Shown here: in pieces, positions 44,820 through 59,870 of the stretch
How the letters are laid out: every line of letters begins with the position of its first letter
How positions within the stretch are numbered: position 1 is the stretch's first letter
From: Sphingomonas sp. 67-36
Lineage (GTDB): Bacteria > Pseudomonadota > Alphaproteobacteria > Sphingomonadales > Sphingomonadaceae
Length of the DNA stretch: 64,000 nt
Reading direction: 5' to 3'
NCBI GenBank assembly: GCA_001897375.1
Contig: MKSU01000009.1
Coordinates: 1-64,000, forward strand
Translations under genes and position numbers: made by a program
The notes under the pieces: generated by a model
Told to the model about the DNA's origin: nothing
What the model saw: the letters and a program-made list of their open reading frames with translations, nothing else
The model's database searches: none

Positions 44820-45040
44820 CGCGCCCGTAGAAATGTAGATTCTGGCAGCAATGCTTAGTTACGTTCGTAATAGTGGGTGTTGCCGCCGCGACACAGCAAT
44901 CGAGAGAACGTAACTCCTGCGACGATGTGCCTTGGACATGGCATGGGTGCGCTGTAATCCTTCGGACAGTGTGGCATTTGCCACCGAATAGCATGGCCGT
45001 CCGGGGCTATTCCCGAGAACGGCATAAAGGGGATTTCGTA
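44820..45040 (+). promoter_or_regulatory. Leader region of the first TonB receptor with two inverted repeats
   Basis: No gene is seen in these 221 bases. GTTACGTTC (44858-44866) and GAACGTAAC (44906-44914) are a perfect inverted pair 39 bases apart. GTGGCATTTGCCAC (44971-44984) is a second palindrome, 57 bp before the receptor start. Either may be an operator. An AAAGGGGAT ribosome site precedes ATG 45041. Confidence 0.5.
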
Positions 45041-47974
45041 ATGCGAAACTTTAACGCTCGGCGTTTCCTCTGCACGACGACTATCATCGCGGGCTTTGCC
45101 GCGATGCCGGCGTTCGCGCAGACCGATACGCAGCCGGCTGCGTCGCAGGAAACTGCCGCTGACGCCACCAAGGACATCGTCGTCACCGGCACGCTGATCC
45201 GCAATCCGAACCTTACCGCGTCGATGCCGGTGAATGTGGTCAATGATGCGGAAATTCTGAAGCGCGCGCCGAGCACTGTCGAAGAACTCGTGCGCAGCCT
45301 GCCGGGTGTGTCGCCGAGCATCGGTTCGCAGGTCAATAATGGCGCGAATGGCGTCAACACGATCGACCTCCGGGGCTTGGGTTCCCAACGCAATGTCGTG
45401 CTTCTCGACGGCAATCGGGTCGTGCCGACCCTCGCCAATGGCGCTACCGATCTCAACGTGATCCCGCTCGCTCTGGTGCAGCGCGTCGACGTGTTGACCG
45501 GTGGTGCTTCGACCACTTATGGTGCCGATGCGGTGTCGGGTGTGGTGAACTTCGTAACCCGCCAGGATTTCCAGGGTCTCGATCTTCGTAGCACTTACAA
45601 GATCTCCGAGCAGGGTGACGGCGCCGCTTTCCGCGCGGACATGACACTGGGTGCGAACTTCGCCGATGGCCGCGGTAATGCGGTGATCAGCTTCGGCTAC
45701 AGTGATATCAAGCCGGTCTATCAGAATCGCCCGTTCGCGCTCTTCACGGTGGACAGCAAGTCCGGTCGCGCATCTGGTTCGTCGGGCACTACCGTGCCGA
45801 CGCGGATCGACGTTGGCGGCACCTCGTATCAAATCAATCCGACTGGAACGAGCCTTGTTCCCTATTATCAGGGATACAACTTCAACCCCTATAACATCTT
45901 CCAGACTCCACTGACGCGTAAGAGCGTCTATGCTGCAACTCATTATGAAGTTGCGGATGGCGTCGAGGTCTATGCTCGCGGCATGTTCTCGCAGACCGTC
46001 ATCCAGTCGATCATTGCGCCGTCGGGGATTTTCGGTGATCCGAAGACGATTCCGGGGAATAATCCGTACTTGAATTCGACGATTCGCGATCAGCTTTGTA
46101 CTGCGAACGGCATTGCACTCGGCGCTACCTGCGATAACAATCCAGCGATTCCGCTTCCCGCCGTCTATCGGCGTCTCGTTGAGCTTGGGCCGCGCGTCAG
46201 CACGTTCGAGAACAACGTATATGATTTCCGTGCGGGTGTTCGCTACGATGTCAGCAGCTCGACAAAACTGGATGTGGGTGCGGCCTATGGTCGTAGCGAG
46301 CAGACGCAGACTCAGTCTGGCTATGTGCTGAACTCGCGTGTTCAGCAGGCGTTGAACGCTACCAACACGACAAGTTGTACTGTCACGACGAACAACTGCG
46401 TCCCGCTCAATTTGTTTGGCCCGGCTGGCAGCATCACTCCGGCGCAGGTGGCCTTCATCCAGGGCCAGAGCACGATCCGAATTAACACCGAGCTGACCCA
46501 GCTTCATGCGCTTTATTCGGGTGATTTCGGTCTTACTTTGCCGGGGGCGAGCGAGCCGGTCAATTTCGCGCTTGGCGCAGAGTATCGTAAGTATACTTAC
46601 CAGCGTATTCCGGATGCTTTCGCACAAAGCCCGGGTGAGCTTGGCGGTGCGGGCGGAGCCATCCTGCCGTTCACGGGTGGATATGACGTCAAGGAAGTGT
46701 TCGGCGAACTGATCGCACCGCTTGTCAGCGACAAGCCGCTGTTCCATGAGTTGACGCTCGAAGCAGGTGCACGTTATTCGGCGTATAACATTCAGGCGCC
46801 GGGCAATCCGACGTTCAATACCTTCACCTATAAGGGCGGACTTACTTGGGCGCCGACTGACGACATTAGGTTCCGTGGCAATTATCAGCGGGCCGTTCGG
46901 GCGCCGAACATCAACGAGTTGTTTGCGCCGACTTCCACCAACCTGACGAACCTGACTACGGATCCGTGTCAGGGGACGGCGCCGCTTGGCAATCCCAATC
47001 TGACTGCGGTCTGCTTGGCACAGGGCGCGCCGGCGCCTTCGATCGGGGTGATTCCGCAGCCCAATTCCGGTCAGGTGAACGCGACGTTCGTCACTAGTAC
47101 GACGTTGAAGCCGGAGAAGGCGGACACGTTTACAGTTGGCGTTGTCCTCACTCCGAAGAGCGTGATTCCCAATTTCACGTTGTCGGTCGATTATTATAAC
47201 ATCATCATCAACAACGCGATCACGTTCGCGACGCCGGGTGACGCAATTGATGCGTGCTTCACGAACATCACCGCCGCGTCGGCGACCTCGCCGGCTTGCA
47301 CGGTCATTCGCCGCAATCCGGCGAACGGGGGTCTCAGCGGTTCCTCGGCCACGACGCCGGGCTTGCTGCTGCTTGAAACGAACCTCGGTCGTCTGGCGAC
47401 GGACGGCATCGATTTGACTGCCAATTATAATCGACAATTCGGCGATTTCGGGCTTGACCTGAATTTCGTCGGCAACTGGACGAACCATCTTCGCTTCCAG
47501 GCCGCGCCTTCGTCGGTCAATCGCGAATGCGTCGGCTATTACAGCGCTAACTGCGGTCCTGCGCTCGGTCAGATCCAGCCGAAGCTGTCCTGGCAGCAAC
47601 GGACTACGGTCTCGCTCGGCGAGGGCAGCCTCTCTTTGCTGTGGCGTCATATCGATCCGGTTCGTTATGAGCCGGGCCTGCCTCCGCTGTTCAACGGTGT
47701 CATTACCAACGCCTCGGGGATTAACTACGCGTTGGCTGGGCAGACGGTTAACTTTAACCGTATTCCGGCATATGATTACTTCGATCTGACCGCGCAGTTC
47801 GAGATTGAAAAGCGCTACCAGATCGTGATCGGTATCCAGAACTTGTTCAACCGACAGCCGCCGATCGTCGGTGGTCAGGCCGGTTCCACGACGGCCAACA
47901 GCGGGAACACCTTCCCGTCGACCTACGATCCGCTTGGCCGGAGCTTCTCGGTTTCGGCTCGCGTCAAGTTCTGA
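45041..47974 (+). CDS. TonB-dependent outer membrane receptor (island copy)
   Basis: A 977-residue outer membrane importer. The signal peptide ends near AMPAFA; a TonB-box-like KDIVVTGTLIRNPNL follows at about residue 44. The plug has STVEELVRSLPGVSP, IDLRGLGSQRNVVLLDGNRVVP and VDVLTGGASTTYGADAVSGVVNFVT; the barrel closes with FSVSARVKF. Several Cys pairs occur in extracellular-loop regions. Substrate is unknown. Codon use is less GC-rich at third positions than in neighbours or in the receptor at 56.8 kb. A sulfotransferase/hydroxylase gene set follows. Confidence 0.93.
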   Translation: MRNFNARRFLCTTTIIAGFAAMPAFAQTDTQPAASQETAADATKDIVVTGTLIRNPNLTASMPVNVVNDAEILKRAPSTVEELVRSLPGVSPSIGSQVNNGANGVNTIDLRGLGSQRNVVLLDGNRVVPTLANGATDLNVIPLALVQRVDVLTGGASTTYGADAVSGVVNFVTRQDFQGLDLRSTYKISEQGDGAAFRADMTLGANFADGRGNAVISFGYSDIKPVYQNRPFALFTVDSKSGRASGSSGTTVPTRIDVGGTSYQINPTGTSLVPYYQGYNFNPYNIFQTPLTRKSVYAATHYEVADGVEVYARGMFSQTVIQSIIAPSGIFGDPKTIPGNNPYLNSTIRDQLCTANGIALGATCDNNPAIPLPAVYRRLVELGPRVSTFENNVYDFRAGVRYDVSSSTKLDVGAAYGRSEQTQTQSGYVLNSRVQQALNATNTTSCTVTTNNCVPLNLFGPAGSITPAQVAFIQGQSTIRINTELTQLHALYSGDFGLTLPGASEPVNFALGAEYRKYTYQRIPDAFAQSPGELGGAGGAILPFTGGYDVKEVFGELIAPLVSDKPLFHELTLEAGARYSAYNIQAPGNPTFNTFTYKGGLTWAPTDDIRFRGNYQRAVRAPNINELFAPTSTNLTNLTTDPCQGTAPLGNPNLTAVCLAQGAPAPSIGVIPQPNSGQVNATFVTSTTLKPEKADTFTVGVVLTPKSVIPNFTLSVDYYNIIINNAITFATPGDAIDACFTNITAASATSPACTVIRRNPANGGLSGSSATTPGLLLLETNLGRLATDGIDLTANYNRQFGDFGLDLNFVGNWTNHLRFQAAPSSVNRECVGYYSANCGPALGQIQPKLSWQQRTTVSLGEGSLSLLWRHIDPVRYEPGLPPLFNGVITNASGINYALAGQTVNFNRIPAYDYFDLTAQFEIEKRYQIVIGIQNLFNRQPPIVGGQAGSTTANSGNTFPSTYDPLGRSFSVSARVKF

Positions 47975-47997
47975 GCAACAAAACCTGGATTAACTGG

Positions 47998-48028
47998 GAG
48001 GCGGCCGAATTCGGTCGCCTCTTTTTTT
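47998..48028 (+). terminator. Strong intrinsic terminator of the first TonB receptor
   Basis: GAGGCGGCCG (47998-48007) pairs with CGGTCGCCTC (48012-48021), one G-U pair, 4-nt loop, followed by seven T. It isolates the receptor transcript. Beyond it to 48161 I see no gene. Confidence 0.92.
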
Positions 48029-48161
48029 GGGTTGCGTCGTTATGACGCGGCTATATCGCCGGCATTCAGTTCGATAGTCGCCGCCGCAATTCCCGGTAAT
48101 GATGAACATCTACGAGAGTCACCATCAAGAACGATTTTCACCGAACATTTGTGCTCGGGGA

Positions 48162-49193
48162 TTAGCTGGCAATATTGGTTAGGAGAGGGTTGGGTAGGGT
48201 GAATTCCAAGCCGCTCTGCTCTGCGATCAGTTGGGCCCAGTCGTAGACCAGCGTTATCTCATCGCCATGCAGCTCGGTCGCTACCTTCTGTTCGGCAAGG
48301 CGGTTGTCCACGGTGAAGGATTCTCCCGACTTCGCGTGGCGGCGGAAGGTCGTGTTGACAATCACGCCGCGACTTTTCGCATCCGAGGTGATACCGAATA
48401 ATCCATCGAGCGCAGTCAGCGATTCCAGCGGTCGGGCAAGTAGCGTCTCACTGCTTGTCGAGCGTACGCGGTCGGGCCAGGCTTTCGCCATTCTGGTGAA
48501 CAGCCGCTGCTGCGCCAGCCATCCAAGCGCCGCGATCTGAAGGTCGGATTGCTTGAAGATATCGTCGCCGGTGAATCCGAAATCGACTAATCCTTCTTTC
48601 AACTGCTTGCTCAGCAGTTCACGGACCCAAAGGCGGCCACGCAGCCCTTTGTTGGCGATTGAGGCGAGATAAATCTCCAGCGGTGCATGAATAAGGAGGA
48701 CGCCCGCTTCCGGACGCGCCGCAACCATCGCCGGCGCCAAGCCGTTGACGACATTGGATGGTTTAATGATCGTCGTCTCACCCGGCTCGAAGGGGCGTGC
48801 CAATAAAGTAAGTGCGTCGCCCAATATCGCACCGATCCGATCCGGCGCGCCGCCGCGCAACCGCCATCCCGTCAGATCATTTAGGAGAACTGGTTCCTTC
48901 ACGCTCGTCGCTACTCCAGGCCGGTCATAGGCATTGGCGAGCAAGGTGGAGCAACAATAAGCCGAGTGGAAAATGAAGCCGATCCGTGTGCTATCAGCGT
49001 TAGTTGCCGTGAGCGCGTCCGTCCGACGAACGATGATCGGAGATCCGGCATCCGGCAGGAATTCGTCGATGAGGAACGGCGCTTCACGTCGCAACTCGCG
49101 GTCGGCGATCACAAAATGCACCGCGTCGTGATCGGGGTCATACCGGTGCGCAAGCCAATCTGGCCGGAGAACCGTTTGAGAGACATTTGTCAT
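48162..49193 (-). CDS. Sulfotransferase-like P-loop protein of unknown function
   Basis: A 343-residue soluble protein. FIFHSAYCCSTLLANAYD (from residue 73) resembles the PAPS-binding loop of sulfotransferases but with a double Cys where Arg-Ser-Gly usually sits. SVKEPVLLNDL, TTIIKPSNVVNGL and GVLLIHAPLEIYLASI follow as in sulfotransferase folds. I do not recognise a named family. I chose ATG 49193; no strong ribosome site is seen, and in-frame starts upstream to 49280 exist. It is divergent from the hydroxylase gene, with 74 bp between the starts. Confidence 0.7.
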   Translation of the reverse strand: MTNVSQTVLRPDWLAHRYDPDHDAVHFVIADRELRREAPFLIDEFLPDAGSPIIVRRTDALTATNADSTRIGFIFHSAYCCSTLLANAYDRPGVATSVKEPVLLNDLTGWRLRGGAPDRIGAILGDALTLLARPFEPGETTIIKPSNVVNGLAPAMVAARPEAGVLLIHAPLEIYLASIANKGLRGRLWVRELLSKQLKEGLVDFGFTGDDIFKQSDLQIAALGWLAQQRLFTRMAKAWPDRVRSTSSETLLARPLESLTALDGLFGITSDAKSRGVIVNTTFRRHAKSGESFTVDNRLAEQKVATELHGDEITLVYDWAQLIAEQSGLEFTLPNPLLTNIAS

Positions 49194-49267
49194 CGCGTGA
49201 TGAGTAGGTCTTTTTGTTGCGGGATCAAGCCGATTGCCGCTGGCGGTAGACCGCCTATATTCCCTCC

Positions 49268-50545
49268 ATGAGGCGGGCAAAAACAGAATTGGAATCGCTG
49301 CTACGTGCGGCTGCAGAGGCGCGGCAGGCGGGACGAATGGCGGAAGAGTTGGCGCATTTGGACGATGCTGTCGCGTATTATCCGGATGAGCCGCGCTCGC
49401 ATAATGCTCGCGCTATGCGAGCCATGGCCGACCGGGATTTTGATAGGGCAGTCAAAGGCTTCCAAGCTGCGGCAAACTTGGATCCGCGCGAGCCGGCACT
49501 GCGACTCAACCTCGCAACCGCTTATCGCGGCCAGGGAGACGATGAAGGCGAGCGGAGCAGCCTTCTGGCAGCGCTCGATATCGATCAGCGCTACTTCATG
49601 GCGCAACTTAGATTGGCTGAGTTACTCCAGCGACAAGGACGAATTTCCGAAGCTGCGCCACACTGGAGCGCGGTGGCGCAACTTGCCGGCGGCATGCAGG
49701 ATCCACCGCCCGCCATGGTCGAGATAAGGGCGCGCGCGGAGGGCCATCTGGTTGAACACAATCGCGCCCTTGCCGCTTTGCTTGATCAGAATATCGGAAT
49801 CGGGGAAGGAGGCAATCCGGCGGCGCACAGGTTTAGCGCGGCTGTTGATCATATTCTGGGCCGCCGCAAAATCTATCACAATGAATGTGCGGGCCTGCAT
49901 TATCCATTCTTGCCCGCCGATGAGTTCTTCGATCGCTCCTTCTTTCCATGGTTTGCCGAGCTTGAGGCCAAAACCGGCGCTATCCGTGCAGAAGCTCTTG
50001 CGATGCTCACCAATCGTAGTGAGGCGATAAGGCCATATGTCAGCCAACCCGCGGGCGCGCCGGAAAATAAATGGTCTCCGCTTGACAACAATCCTGACTG
50101 GTCCGCCTGCTTCCTGTGGGAATTTGGCCGGAAGAATGAGGCGGTTTGCGAGCTCTGTCCCGAAACGGCAGCAGCGCTGGCGGCAGTGCCGCAGAGCCAT
50201 GTTCCGGGTAAGGCGCCCAACGCTTTCTTCTCGATCCTGAGGCCAGGCGCTCATATCCCACCACATACCGGCGTCACCAATACGCGCGCGATCATTCATC
50301 TACCATTAGTCGTGCCGGACGGATGCACCTTCCGCGTTGGCGGAGAAACGCGACATTGGCGAGAAGGGGAAGCTTTCGCGTTCGACGATACGATCGAGCA
50401 CGAAGCGCGTAATGATAGCAATCAGCGCCGCGTTCTCCTAATCTTCGATGTCTGGAACCCTCATTTGACCGAAGCGGAACGGGCGAATCTTGAACGCTTG
50501 TTCGCGATCGTCGATCGTGGGATCGTGACAACCAGCGCCAGATAA
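49268..50545 (+). CDS. TPR protein with aspartyl/asparaginyl beta-hydroxylase domain
   Basis: A 425-residue protein. Residues 1-150 hold TPR-like helices (DFDRAVKGFQAAANLDPREPALRLNLATAY). The C-terminal part matches the AspH catalytic domain: HTGVTNTRAIIHLPLVVPDG, GEAFAFDDTIEHEARND and FDVWNP. Iron ligands correspond to His333 and His378, 45 residues apart (46 in animal AspH). This layout is known in AspH and in bacterial lipid A or peptide hydroxylases. No signal peptide is visible, so it acts in the cytoplasm. Confidence 0.88.
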   Translation: MRRAKTELESLLRAAAEARQAGRMAEELAHLDDAVAYYPDEPRSHNARAMRAMADRDFDRAVKGFQAAANLDPREPALRLNLATAYRGQGDDEGERSSLLAALDIDQRYFMAQLRLAELLQRQGRISEAAPHWSAVAQLAGGMQDPPPAMVEIRARAEGHLVEHNRALAALLDQNIGIGEGGNPAAHRFSAAVDHILGRRKIYHNECAGLHYPFLPADEFFDRSFFPWFAELEAKTGAIRAEALAMLTNRSEAIRPYVSQPAGAPENKWSPLDNNPDWSACFLWEFGRKNEAVCELCPETAAALAAVPQSHVPGKAPNAFFSILRPGAHIPPHTGVTNTRAIIHLPLVVPDGCTFRVGGETRHWREGEAFAFDDTIEHEARNDSNQRRVLLIFDVWNPHLTEAERANLERLFAIVDRGIVTTSAR

Positions 50546-50561
50546 TCGGTGTGATCGCCAT

Positions 50562-52031
50562 TCAGGCGATTTTGACGCCGCTCTCGCTCAATCCAAGCAG
50601 TTCGCGTGCTTTCGTCAAATGCTTCGCATAGTGCAACCAACGACCCGATGATCGAAGGGTGAGCGGTTTTCTAACTTGCCAGAGGCTCGCAGTTTGAACA
50701 ACATCACTTTGATATGAGGAATTTTCAAGTTGATTTTCCCAATTCAACCCAAGAAAATTGATTGCACGTTCTATTTCTCTCCGCGGACTTGCAACTAACA
50801 GATCGTAATTGATGTCGTATATATCTTTTGGGTACAGTGTTTTCCAATATTCCATGATCCGGAGATAAGTTAGATAATAATGCGCGATATCACAAAAATC
50901 ATAACTATAAGGAACATCATGATCAAAATCGGTGGCGTACAGAGATACGAAATTGTCGAGCGGATATCGGTGAGTATGAATCATCTTGGCGTCAGGAAAT
51001 ATACTCTTAATTAATCCAATATGCATGAAGTTATCGCATCTTTTATCGGTGATAATTGATGTTGGTGTTATATCAATCTGTATATCGGACCAGTATAGAT
51101 CGCGCAGCCGTTCAAAGTCACTAGTAGAAAGTTCTTGTAATATCTCTGGATATTGGTCGCCATACGAACTCGTCAAAGCTGGAAGGAATTCCAACTCGCC
51201 GCCCGCGACGATCTTGCTGTGACGAGCAAGGATCTGTTCAACCAGCGTTGATCCGGAACGAAACATGCCAACGACGAAGATCGGAGCGGCGCGATCACTT
51301 TTGGCGATTGACGCAGCACGTTTCGGGGAGGCGGCTATCAACCGCTCCACCAGTCTGTCTTGCGCGATGCGATCATAGCGGTGCGGCGAAACCGAACGGG
51401 AAAGCCAATTGGCCGCTTCATATGCAAGATAGGCCTCATCATAGTTTTCGCGCGCATCATGTGCGGTGCCCATGGCAAACAGAATATCGGCGCGGCCGCG
51501 CGCATCGGATACATTATCCAGTGCACGGTTCAGATTTGTGATGGCTTGGCCGGGGTGTCCTTCGGAAATATCGATCACGGCCAGACGGGCATGGGCGCGA
51601 CCATTGCGGGCGTCGATAGCCAATGCCTCCATATAGGCTTTTCGCGCCGCATCGGCCAAGCCTCGGTCCTCATGTAAATGCCCGAGATTGAGCCATGCCG
51701 GAATGAAATATGGATTAATATCAATTGCTTGACGAAGCTCCAGTTCGGCCTCGTCCAACTGGAAGAGGTGATCTGAAAGAATCGCCGCTCGATTGAGATG
51801 GGCCTCTTCTGGCCGTTCGACGCCGTAGCGGATGGCTTGTGCATAGGATGTGAGGGCCGGTCGGAATTGTCGTAGAGCGCGCTGAGCCCAAGCTAGATTG
51901 AACCACGCATCGGGAAGATTATTGCGGACTGCGACCGCAGAGAGGTATGCGTCCACTGCGGCCGACAGTTCGCCAGCGCGTAATGCTGCTGCGCCCTTGG
52001 CCAGATACTCTTTGAGTTCCTCGTTCATCAT
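50562..52031 (-). CDS. TPR-repeat sulfotransferase
   Basis: A 489-residue protein. Residues 1-215 are about six TPR units (AWFNLAWAQRALRQFRPALTSYAQAI, PAWLNLGHLHEDRGLADAARKAYMEAL). From residue 250 a sulfotransferase domain starts: VGMFRSGSTLVEQILARH binds the PAPS 5'-phosphosulfate, and MIHTHRYPLDNFVSLY is the 3'-phosphate region. Such proteins transfer sulfate to proteins or glycans; the target is unknown. The catalytic half is much richer in A+T than the TPR half (23 of 60 bases are G or C in 50881-50940). ATG 52031 or 52028 is the start. Confidence 0.88.
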   Translation of the reverse strand: MMNEELKEYLAKGAAALRAGELSAAVDAYLSAVAVRNNLPDAWFNLAWAQRALRQFRPALTSYAQAIRYGVERPEEAHLNRAAILSDHLFQLDEAELELRQAIDINPYFIPAWLNLGHLHEDRGLADAARKAYMEALAIDARNGRAHARLAVIDISEGHPGQAITNLNRALDNVSDARGRADILFAMGTAHDARENYDEAYLAYEAANWLSRSVSPHRYDRIAQDRLVERLIAASPKRAASIAKSDRAAPIFVVGMFRSGSTLVEQILARHSKIVAGGELEFLPALTSSYGDQYPEILQELSTSDFERLRDLYWSDIQIDITPTSIITDKRCDNFMHIGLIKSIFPDAKMIHTHRYPLDNFVSLYATDFDHDVPYSYDFCDIAHYYLTYLRIMEYWKTLYPKDIYDINYDLLVASPRREIERAINFLGLNWENQLENSSYQSDVVQTASLWQVRKPLTLRSSGRWLHYAKHLTKARELLGLSESGVKIA

Positions 52032-52076
52032 CCGCGTTCTGTGCCCGCGCAACCGTTAATGCGCCAGAGCGATCTC

Positions 52077-54656
<2,580 letters not shown>

Positions 54657-54686
54657 ACAGCTCCCCTTGAGATGGCAGGGATGTAA

Positions 54687-54704
54687 TGTGGCATTTTTGC
54701 CACA
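54687..54704. repeat. Inverted repeat in the clpB/aldolase divergent promoter region
   Basis: TGTGGCA-TTTT-TGCCACA (54687-54704) is a perfect 7-bp inverted repeat 31 bp before the clpB start and 81 bp before the aldolase start. The core GTGGCATT...TGCCAC also occurs before the receptor at 45041. The minus strand here carries CTTG and CATTAC elements that loosely recall heat-shock sigma-32 promoters; the match is weak. Confidence 0.5.
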
Positions 54705-54784
54705 CAAGGGGGTGCGGCAAGGATGGTGGCGATGGCAACGGATCGGCGGTACAAGGGTTGCAAATCGAAACAGGAGAGCGACTC

Positions 54785-56829: not shown

Positions 56830-59772
56830 TCAGAACTTGACGCGCGCGCCAGCGAACATCGTAGCGCCGACCCGGTCGACGGGGTTCGCGATCGAGCCGA
56901 GATCGGACTTCTGGTTGAACAGGTTGTTCACGCCGCCGTAGAACTGGAACGCCTGCGTCACGTCGAAGCTCGCATAGATGCTGTGGACCCAGCGATCCTT
57001 GAAATAGGCATATTGCGGAGCGACGTAGTTCGGATTGCCGGCCATCGTGTCCTTCGAATAGCGCAGCGTCTTGTCCCACCACGACAGGCTGTAGTTGAAC
57101 GTGAACGGGCCGGACTGGTAGGTGATCGTCGTATATGCCTGATATTTCGGCATGTATCCGTTATATGCCGTGCCCTGCTCGTCGGTTGGCTCCGCGCCCG
57201 GCGTGCCGACGAACGTCAGCTTGTTGAGATAATTGCCCACGACCTTGATGTTGAACGTGCCGATCTTCTCGATCAGGAAGCGATAGTTCAGGTTCAGATC
57301 GAGACCGGCGGTCTTGAAGCTCGCCACGTTCTGCGGGAACACGGTGAAGCCGGTGATCAGGCCGGTGCCGCTCTGGCGCTGGATGCTGGAGCAGAACTGG
57401 TTGTTGATCGTGGCCTGATCCACGCACAGCTCGGCAAGCTGCTGCGGGTCGACCGTGTTGATCGCGTTCTTCAGGTTGATGTTATACCAGTCGAGCGACA
57501 GTTGCAGGCCGGGAATGAAGCGCGGCTGAAGCACGACGCCCGCTGTCCACGTCCGCGCTTCTTCCGGTGCCAGTTTGGCATTGCCGCTCTGGACGCCCGG
57601 GATGTTGGTGTTCCGGGGATCTTCGAAATTGTCGATCGCCTCCTGATCGAGACCGGCGGCGGAAAGGATCGCCTGGCAATTGGCCGGTCGCGTGGATTTG
57701 CCCAGCCCACGGTTGCCGACGATGCAGGGATCGTCGAAGAACTCGAACGTCTGGGAAGGCGCGCCGTAGAGTTCGCCGATGTTCGGCGCGCGGACGGCCT
57801 TGGAAAGCGTGCCGCGGAAGCGAATGTCGCGGACCGGCGCCCAGGTGAGATCAGTCTTCCACGTCGTCGTATGGCCGATCGATGAGTAATCGGAGAAGCG
57901 CACCGCGCCGCTCACGTCGAGCGTGTCGAAGAACGGGCGGTCCTTCAGCAGCGGCAGATCCAGTTCGCCGAAGAATTCCTTCACGTCGAACTGTCCCCGG
58001 GTCGGAAGCAGCTGATTGCTGAATGTCAGGCCCTGCTGCTCGAGCATGTCGGGCGTGAAGCGAGACATCTCCTTGCGGTATTCGGCGCCCACCGCATAGC
58101 CCACCGGGCCGCCCGGCAGGCTGAACAGGTGCCGGAGATCGCCGCTGATCGAACCCGAAACGACATGCTGGGTGATGAGCGAATGCTCGGTGGTGTTGGC
58201 GTGGATGAAATCGAGGCCGGACTGGAGGCTGTTCCCCTCACCGAACAGGTTGATCGGCTGGCACTGGCCCGGCGCGAAGGTGGTCGGCGACTGCACCGAG
58301 CGGCTGGATGAATAGGGCTGGTCCGGCTCCCAGTTCGGATCGAGATTCACCCGGCAGGTGATCTGGTTGTTGGCCGGATTGCGCACCGCGTCGATCGCCG
58401 CGAAGAAGCGGTCGTTATAGATGTCGTTGACGAAGCGATTGGTGACGCTCGTCTGTCCGAAGACATACGAAACCTCATAGTGCATGCTGTCGGACAGGTC
58501 GCCCTTGGCGCCGATCACCGAGCGGTAAGTCTCGCGCTTGATGTTCTCGCCACGCTGTCCAAGGTCGAAATTGTCACGGGTGACGAGAACGCCGCCCAGT
58601 TCCGGGTCAATCGCGCTGCGGATCGCGGCTGGAATGTATGGATTGTCCTGCGGGATGAACAGGTAATAGTCGTATGTAGGCTGGCTGAGCGAATAGGACC
58701 TAGTGTTCGCGTATTTGCCTTCGGCGAATAGCTGGAGTTTGTCTGACACGTCGTAATGCGCCATCAGGTTGACGACGTGGCGCTGCACTTTCGGCAACAG
58801 GTCGTTACCATAGTCGGAGACCAGCGTGTCGTCGCTGTTGCGGGAATAGCCGCCGGGGATTGAGGTGCCGTTGTTGTAAACCGCGCCGGTGCCGGTGAAA
58901 TCGGGTACGCCATCGAAATCGACGTCAACCGCGCCGACGCGCGAGGTTCCCTCGTAACGCAGGCCGCTTTGCGGGATTATATAATAGGATCCCGCCTGGC
59001 CGGCGACATAATCGGGGTTGCGCGCGAAAGCCACGCGATTCAGCCCGGTCAGCTCGGTCCGGTTCTTCGTTTGCAGGCGATCGTTGTCGCCATATTCGTA
59101 AGCGAGCGTGATATTGCCGCGTCCATCGGCGAAATTATGGCCGGCGGTGATGGCGAAGAGGCGCTGCCCCGCATCGCCATATTTGCTGATATTGGCCTGG
59201 GCACGCGCCGTGATACCCTCGAAATTCTTCTTCATCACGAAGTTGACGACGCCGGTGACGCCGTCCGCGCCGTAGATTGCCGAAGCGCCGCCGGTGAGCA
59301 CGTCGATACGCTCGATCAGATCCTCGGGGATCGAGTTGATATCAACCGCCTGCGTCCCGTCGAGGCTGGCGACGTGGCGTCGCCCGTCGACCAGCACCAG
59401 CGTTCGTTCCGTGCCGAGATTGCGGAGGTTGAGCAGGTTGAGGCCGGTGGCGCCGATTCCGGCGCGATCGCCGGAATTGTCGCGCGAGGTTGAGGAGCCG
59501 GCGAGCGCGGGGAGGCCGGTGAGGAAATCGGTGACGTTCGTCGTGCCGGCCTGCTGCAACTGCTGCGCGCCGAACGAAATGATCGGGCTGGCGGTCTCGT
59601 AGTCCGGGCGCCGGATGCGCGAGCCGGTGACGACAACGTCCTCGACCGGCTGCGAGGCGGCGGCTTCGGTGGTGTCCGGATTGGTCTGGGCGAAAACGGC
59701 GGTGGGCGCGAACGCCAGCGCCGACACGGCGAGGTTCAGCGCCGCCTTGCGTGCCTTGATCGTACTCATCAT
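56830..59772 (-). CDS. TonB-dependent outer membrane receptor (second copy)
   Basis: A 980-residue importer of the same broad family as the receptor at 45041. Signal peptide ends near AVFA; VEDVVVTGSRIRRPDYETASP is the TonB-box region. Plug motifs LRNLGTERTLVLVDGRRHV and IDVLTGGASAIYGADGVTGVVNF are close to the first copy; the barrel ends ATMFAGARVKF. AAGGGA lies seven bases before ATG 59772. Base composition is like the rest of the genome, unlike the first copy. Substrate unknown. Confidence 0.93.
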   Translation of the reverse strand: MMSTIKARKAALNLAVSALAFAPTAVFAQTNPDTTEAAASQPVEDVVVTGSRIRRPDYETASPIISFGAQQLQQAGTTNVTDFLTGLPALAGSSTSRDNSGDRAGIGATGLNLLNLRNLGTERTLVLVDGRRHVASLDGTQAVDINSIPEDLIERIDVLTGGASAIYGADGVTGVVNFVMKKNFEGITARAQANISKYGDAGQRLFAITAGHNFADGRGNITLAYEYGDNDRLQTKNRTELTGLNRVAFARNPDYVAGQAGSYYIIPQSGLRYEGTSRVGAVDVDFDGVPDFTGTGAVYNNGTSIPGGYSRNSDDTLVSDYGNDLLPKVQRHVVNLMAHYDVSDKLQLFAEGKYANTRSYSLSQPTYDYYLFIPQDNPYIPAAIRSAIDPELGGVLVTRDNFDLGQRGENIKRETYRSVIGAKGDLSDSMHYEVSYVFGQTSVTNRFVNDIYNDRFFAAIDAVRNPANNQITCRVNLDPNWEPDQPYSSSRSVQSPTTFAPGQCQPINLFGEGNSLQSGLDFIHANTTEHSLITQHVVSGSISGDLRHLFSLPGGPVGYAVGAEYRKEMSRFTPDMLEQQGLTFSNQLLPTRGQFDVKEFFGELDLPLLKDRPFFDTLDVSGAVRFSDYSSIGHTTTWKTDLTWAPVRDIRFRGTLSKAVRAPNIGELYGAPSQTFEFFDDPCIVGNRGLGKSTRPANCQAILSAAGLDQEAIDNFEDPRNTNIPGVQSGNAKLAPEEARTWTAGVVLQPRFIPGLQLSLDWYNINLKNAINTVDPQQLAELCVDQATINNQFCSSIQRQSGTGLITGFTVFPQNVASFKTAGLDLNLNYRFLIEKIGTFNIKVVGNYLNKLTFVGTPGAEPTDEQGTAYNGYMPKYQAYTTITYQSGPFTFNYSLSWWDKTLRYSKDTMAGNPNYVAPQYAYFKDRWVHSIYASFDVTQAFQFYGGVNNLFNQKSDLGSIANPVDRVGATMFAGARVKF

Positions 59773-59846
59773 ACTAAATCCCTTTTTCGGACTTTTGTCC
59801 TTCTGCGCGGCAGTCTTTGTAAAATTCGCCGTAACGCAAGCAAAAG

Positions 59847-59870
59847 GCGCCATTTTACCTGAAATGGCGC
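59847..59870 (-). other. Hairpin upstream of the second TonB receptor
   Basis: GCGCCATTT (59847-59855) and AAATGGCGC (59862-59870) are a perfect 9-bp stem with a 6-nt loop, 75 bp before the receptor start. On the minus strand CCTTTTGCTT follows, so it could act as an attenuator if the transcript starts upstream; otherwise it is an operator-like palindrome. No gene lies in 59773-60000. Confidence 0.55.

Follow-up and report, generated by a model that had tools for sequence, protein, structure and literature searches.

Organisation of the locus and family placement of its genes

The window analysed here, 64 kb of Sphingomonas sp. 67-36 DNA from contig C9 (MKSU01000009.1) of a 4.0 Mb genome, carries purD, xseA and an M23 peptidase gene on one side and clpB on the other side of four long open reading frames (ORFs). 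These encode a TonB-dependent receptor, a sulfotransferase-like protein (STL), a protein with tetratricopeptide (TPR) repeats and an aspartyl/asparaginyl beta-hydroxylase domain (ASPH), and a TPR protein with a sulfotransferase domain (TPRST). The first-pass annotation, made from the DNA letters, had described four adjacent genes from the xseA side to clpB, a receptor plus three enzymes of which two carry TPR repeats, and this was borne out by ORF and Pfam analysis and, for STL, by the predicted fold. The features of the block are as follows.

45041..47974, + strand: TonB-dependent receptor, 977 amino acids (aa), with plug and barrel
47996..48023, + strand: terminator-like stem-loop and T run 3' of the receptor gene (consensus match only)
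48162..49193, - strand: STL, sulfotransferase-like by model fold, 343 aa, without a Pfam family
49194..49267, no strand: divergent STL/ASPH gap of 74 bases, from its geometry a likely promoter region
49268..50545, + strand: ASPH, TPR repeats and aspartyl/asparaginyl beta-hydroxylase domain (PF05118), 425 aa
50562..52031, - strand: TPRST, TPR repeats and Sulfotransfer_3 domain (PF13469), 489 aa, an optional member

ATG starts were preferred over the longest frames (receptor 45041, STL 49193, ASPH 49268, TPRST 52031). The receptor and STL genes are convergent across a gap of 187 bases, STL and ASPH diverge from their 74-base gap, which holds a weak promoter-like match at 49234-49261 (+), and ASPH and TPRST converge, 16 bases apart. 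A terminator of its own had been ascribed to the receptor gene, and a stem of 12 pairs followed by a T run is indeed present at 47996-48023, as a consensus match; terminator-like sites in the region number 5 against a shuffle mean of 7.2, that is, no excess. TPRST lies on the same strand as clpB, 45 bases behind it (50562-54707), and could be co-read with it.

The receptor matched the Pfam plug (7.3e-21) and barrel (2.9e-32) models, and its extracellular part is predicted to contain five conserved Cys pairs. In ASPH, PF05118 (Asp_Arg_Hydrox) matched residues 234-398 at 4.5e-45, and of the N-terminal repeats TPR_17 scored above its cut-off (6.6e-6) and other TPR models below theirs; against ASPH crystal sequences the protein aligned at E 6.5e-35, including the His-bearing core. 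TPRST combines TPR repeats with PF13469 (Sulfotransfer_3; 1.4e-35, residues 257-439 of a 496-aa reading), and resembled protein-tyrosine sulfotransferase 2 weakly (E 7e-4). For STL there was no Pfam family at E <= 1 and no meaningful NCBIfam match, and of two relatives scanned one matched PF13469, at 0.14 only. The predicted STL model (predicted local distance difference test score, pLDDT, 88.4) nevertheless has the sulfotransferase fold, with tyrosylprotein sulfotransferases (TPSTs) as the nearest folds. The motif HSAxCxST and residues E104, K148 and S182 (numbering of the alignment reference) are invariant in 17 aligned STL relatives, and may correspond to the TPST residues for catalysis and for binding of 3'-phosphoadenosine 5'-phosphosulfate (PAPS). 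STL is a widespread enzyme family that is unnamed in the libraries scanned.

These family placements bear on the idea that the enzymes alter an envelope lipid, such as a sphingolipid or an ornithine lipid, and are merely neighbours of the receptor. The ASPH domain does resemble the lipid hydroxylases OlsC (96.4 bits) and LpxO (64.9 bits) of NCBIfam, but both scores fall far under the curated cut-offs (450 and 500 bits, respectively), ASPH bears TPR repeats, and STL is nearest to sulfotransferases that act on proteins; we therefore consider a lipid substrate very improbable.

Conservation of the block and of its chromosomal site

STL relatives numbered 280, with one genome per species, and the best 80 by STL similarity were examined with up to 10 kb on each side. 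These 80 loci are mutually non-independent; 64 of them, referred to here as roomy, are flanked by 4.5 kb or more on each side. A receptor was present at 63 of the 64 roomy loci, ASPH at 61, at least one small secreted protein at 56, a further secreted protein (c3) at 45, clpB at 38 and TPRST at 16, which makes TPRST an optional member of the block. The linkage is far stronger than is visible from the sequence of the window alone, and the linkage of the enzymes to TonB receptors, on which the first-pass annotation had staked its reading, is conserved. A neighbourhood survey of 249 family genomes, with three receptor candidates scored per genome and kinship ignored, gave a similar picture. STL and a close receptor occurred together in 57 genomes, STL only in 5, the receptor only in 29 and neither in 158; for STL and core ASPH the corresponding numbers were 41, 21, 9 and 178. 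There were 62 core STL places in these genomes, 52 with a close receptor within 12 kb and 32 with a core ASPH, and all 52 close receptors were convergent with STL, on its 3' side.

Paralogues away from these loci behaved differently. None of 22 divergent STL copies had a close receptor of this kind, and a strong receptor of any kind was found at 3 of the 20 divergent STL loci fetched (hand-picked as 19 of the 22 matches plus one weaker), or at 9 of 20 if any receptor match counts. Control loci for ASPH were likewise hand-picked, 20 of 70 non-core matches; class-2 ASPH control loci had a strong receptor in 3 of 20, ASPH away from STL still had one in 13 of 20, and at least seven other non-core matches of the 70 lie near a core STL (G106, G214, G020, G084, G171, G029, G043). 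At the divergent STL loci (L178-L197, L227) a PF13661/PF13640 oxygenase was present in 9 of 20, directly adjoining STL in six (L178, L179, L180, L185, L187, L188). Receptors of other subfamilies, several of which also occupy the clpB-xseA site, are accompanied by ASPH but have substitutes for STL (for example L147, L152, L153, L157, L163), either TPR-sulfotransferases or an oxygenase of the TPR/PF13759 or the PF13661/PF13640 type. Oxygenase and sulfotransferase are a recurrent pair.

Locus-distance correlations beyond clpB were 0.71, 0.61 and 0.65 among receptor, STL and ASPH, compared with 0.39 to 0.46, also significant, for the block genes against the flanking xseA and M23; xseA against purD gave 0.75, about equal to the block-gene pairs. 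One account of the locus is that block transfer and conservation of the site have kept together a receptor and enzymes without a common function. The block does hold one chromosomal site and move as a block, and the tree of 107 core receptors requires 11 or more changes of STL state. However, the receptor-STL pairing persists over deep divergence and in Kordiimonadales, whose receptors (L050, L054, L112) nest inside the sphingomonad receptors (FastTree), receptors are repeatedly accompanied by two or three different families of oxygenase and sulfotransferase, and paralogues elsewhere are seldom receptor-linked, so that neighbourhood without common function seems to us quite unlikely. Across the class, STL was found in 4 of 357 genomes.

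The four genes had also been called visibly less GC-rich than their neighbours, and this holds: GC is 0.583 in the receptor gene, 0.582 in STL, 0.585 in ASPH and 0.502 in TPRST, against 0.67-0.73 in purD, xseA, M23 and clpB, and third-position GC is 0.49-0.70 against 0.86-0.89. In relatives the mean third-position difference from the neighbouring genes was nearly absent (receptor +0.001, 71 loci; STL -0.024, 69 loci; ASPH -0.026, 64 loci; TPRST -0.049, 21 loci), and the shift is therefore mainly a property of the window's own genome. Among the 80 STL loci clpB was kept at 47, xseA at 36, M23 at 32 and purD at 30. Gene order is unchanged in L033, a metagenome genome and the closest relative, with identities of 94% for clpB, 78% for ASPH, 70% for STL and 63% for TPRST. 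Because many relatives carry the block at this clpB-xseA-purD site and the order in L033 matches, a recent foreign island was rejected as the main account. A PHROGs search, made with a phage or defence origin in mind, was blank for STL and two small proteins. The block is widespread and occupies a fixed chromosomal site, and since the GC shift mainly belongs to this genome, the label 'accessory' given to it earlier fits badly. A second TonB-dependent receptor, of another subfamily, lies near the block at 56830-59853 (-), with a third-position GC of 0.817.

Small secreted proteins at the relatives' loci

Clustering of neighbour genes revealed small secreted proteins with the common motif C-x6-GS-x7-C-x5-W, in which the C, G, C and W are invariant across 29 aligned copies; no Pfam or NCBIfam family fitted the three copies scanned. 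They are a further common member of the block, which the first-pass annotation could not see because the window has no copy at the locus. A model of the family matched 105 frames in 87 of 181 sources. In the 249 genomes, 55 of the best 60 listed copies had a core STL or a listed receptor no more than 8 kb away; the following 40 contributed 17 such copies and the 50 after those 9, a ranking that favours locus copies because the model was built from them. A small protein was near 41 of the 62 core STL places, against a chance expectation of ~1% (estimated from two copies per 3.3 Mb), and two or more copies stand in a row at L109, L221, L223, L225 and L236. Across the class the small protein was found in 12 of 357 genomes. 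Examples, together with both distant copies from G000, the window's genome, are given below.

L061:8239-8493 (-): small secreted protein of the motif family
L153:4374-4928 (-): example of neighbour-gene cluster c3
G000:C4:110986-111174: distant small-protein copy, 54 bits, not beside a receptor
G000:C15:110992-111198: distant small-protein copy, 50 bits, not beside a receptor

TPRST was associated with absence of the small protein, which was missing at 5 of 16 loci with TPRST and 3 of 48 without it (p 0.019, uncorrected). The two thus tend toward mutual exclusion; in the window, TPRST is present and the small protein missing. The c3 protein, of ~185 aa and weakly VasI-like, lies beside the receptor where it occurs; the window locus has no room for it.

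A proposed modification pathway and its known counterparts

The PAPS and 2-oxoglutarate chemistry expected of these enzymes is cytoplasmic, TPR domains bind chains, and the enzymes have no apparent export signal, so that an outbound polypeptide would be the simplest substrate; a PAPS-making enzyme is present, and the receptor is the most constant partner in the block. Polypeptide modification by the block is plausible. The reading that we favour, at a little under even odds (roughly 45%), is of a conserved receptor-centred modification locus, in which a polypeptide awaiting export is modified in the cytoplasm by ASPH and by one or two sulfotransferases that use PAPS, with the receptor as partner or substrate. 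The TPR domain would hold the unfolded chain, the 2-oxoglutarate oxygenase would then hydroxylate Asp or Asn, and the sulfotransferase would sulfate a hydroxyl, either of a Tyr, Ser or Thr side chain or a newly made one; the product would be exported by Sec, and the modified chain would set what the receptor binds. Candidate substrates would rank with the receptor itself or the adjoining small secreted protein first and a peptide ligand coded elsewhere next. The earlier suggestion that the enzymes act on the receptor, on its ligand or on a partner peptide gains from the linkage and from two of the three enzymes being nearest to protein-modifying ones; its activities and substrate are deduced from sequence and model.

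The recurrence of the oxygenase and sulfotransferase pair leads us to suggest that a site may first be hydroxylated to make it ready for sulfation. A stronger version, in which a dedicated locus beta-hydroxylates and then O-sulfates the outer-membrane receptor or a small secreted partner, the sulfotransferase using the hydroxyl made by the oxygenase and interchangeable enzyme families serving different receptors, is in our view rather doubtful; if true, it would unite in bacteria the equivalents of two protein modifications of the secretory pathway. Should the modification prove real, it would be one of few examples in which an outer-membrane protein, or its partner, has dedicated enzymes for hydroxylation and sulfation. 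Sphingomonad receptors of this class are mostly without a known ligand, and the locus gives a handle on their role.

Several observations weigh against a receptor-centred modification locus. The STL profile had no matches among PDB sequences at E <= 10, so that no solved sulfotransferase was matched and by sequence STL is not a tyrosylprotein sulfotransferase. The 10 core STL places without a close receptor are partly contig ends, and in at least four genomes (G001, G094, G095, G110) STL is on a long contig with no adjoining close receptor. Conversely, strong receptors without STL show that the receptor works without it. In a kinship-aware test, with STL presence labelled by tblastn and the secondary receptors L038 and L041 left out, no receptor residue tracked STL or ASPH (9-10 independent pairs; underpowered). 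The residues Y430, D397 and T638 had been tried as markers of the enzymes and gave a good plain contrast (0.93 vs 0.26 for Y430), which was lost on independent tree pairs. Since the window locus and 8 of the 64 roomy relatives have no copy of the small protein, this was rejected as an obligatory substrate; its distribution is also broader, and at the ten places read outside the bacterial family surveyed no receptor of this kind lies beside it. Finally, the tightest pairs are physically linked, and their shared history may therefore reflect transfer as a block.

A different role for the same genes would be to build or tailor a peptide natural product that is coded elsewhere and that the receptor imports or senses, as with methanobactin and lasso peptides. 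There are precedents: methanobactin operons combine a ribosomal peptide and a TonB-dependent transporter with, in some, a threonine-targeting sulfotransferase (PMC3621798); in a lasso pathway, CanE adds a hydroxyl to Asp of the precursor (PMC9266682, PMC8498205); and a table in PMC10040529 has consecutively numbered clusters with lasso B2, two sulfotransferases and an aspartyl beta-hydroxylase, adjacency presumably following from the numbering. Against this, no lasso or methanobactin maturation family was found among the four block proteins (Pfam, NCBIfam), and nothing resembling a precursor was recognised among the short frames of the two window gaps read, the rest of the genome not having been searched for clusters. 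Such a peptide pathway appears unlikely to us, and we retain modification of an outbound polypeptide as the preferred reading.

The gene set is undescribed in the open-licence full-text literature searched, and may be described elsewhere; the main texts of PMC7142613 (sphingomonad transporters) and PMC11658791 (a review of substrate uptake) contain neither 'sulfotransferase' nor 'hydroxylase'. Several known systems share parts of it. Compared with TPST1 and TPST2, which are eukaryotic, STL is only 11-14% identical, has no PDB sequence match, and is cytoplasmic and bacterial. The comparator for ASPH is aspartyl/asparaginyl beta-hydroxylase, as in humans: the catalytic domains match (E 6.5e-35), the PHTGxTN, HL and FDDxxEH stretches align and TPR repeats precede the domain in both, but alignment of the TPR parts is poor (7.4 and 4.4 bits) and no export signal is apparent in the block enzyme. 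No Rax genes are among the four block proteins, and we know of no receptor of this kind with RaxST and RaxX. RaxST is a bacterial sulfotransferase that modifies the small secreted peptide RaxX (PMC4216712, PMC6637879). MbnA and MbnB/MbnC were neither among the four proteins nor recognised in the two gaps, the rest of the genome not having been searched. MbnB is a DUF692 protein. The methanobactin (mbn) system resembles the block in placing a TonB-dependent transporter beside a sulfotransferase and oxidative enzymes that act on a ribosomal peptide (PMC3621798), whereas the block has a TPR/aspartyl hydroxylase and an unclassified sulfotransferase, and any small protein is of the Sec-secreted type.
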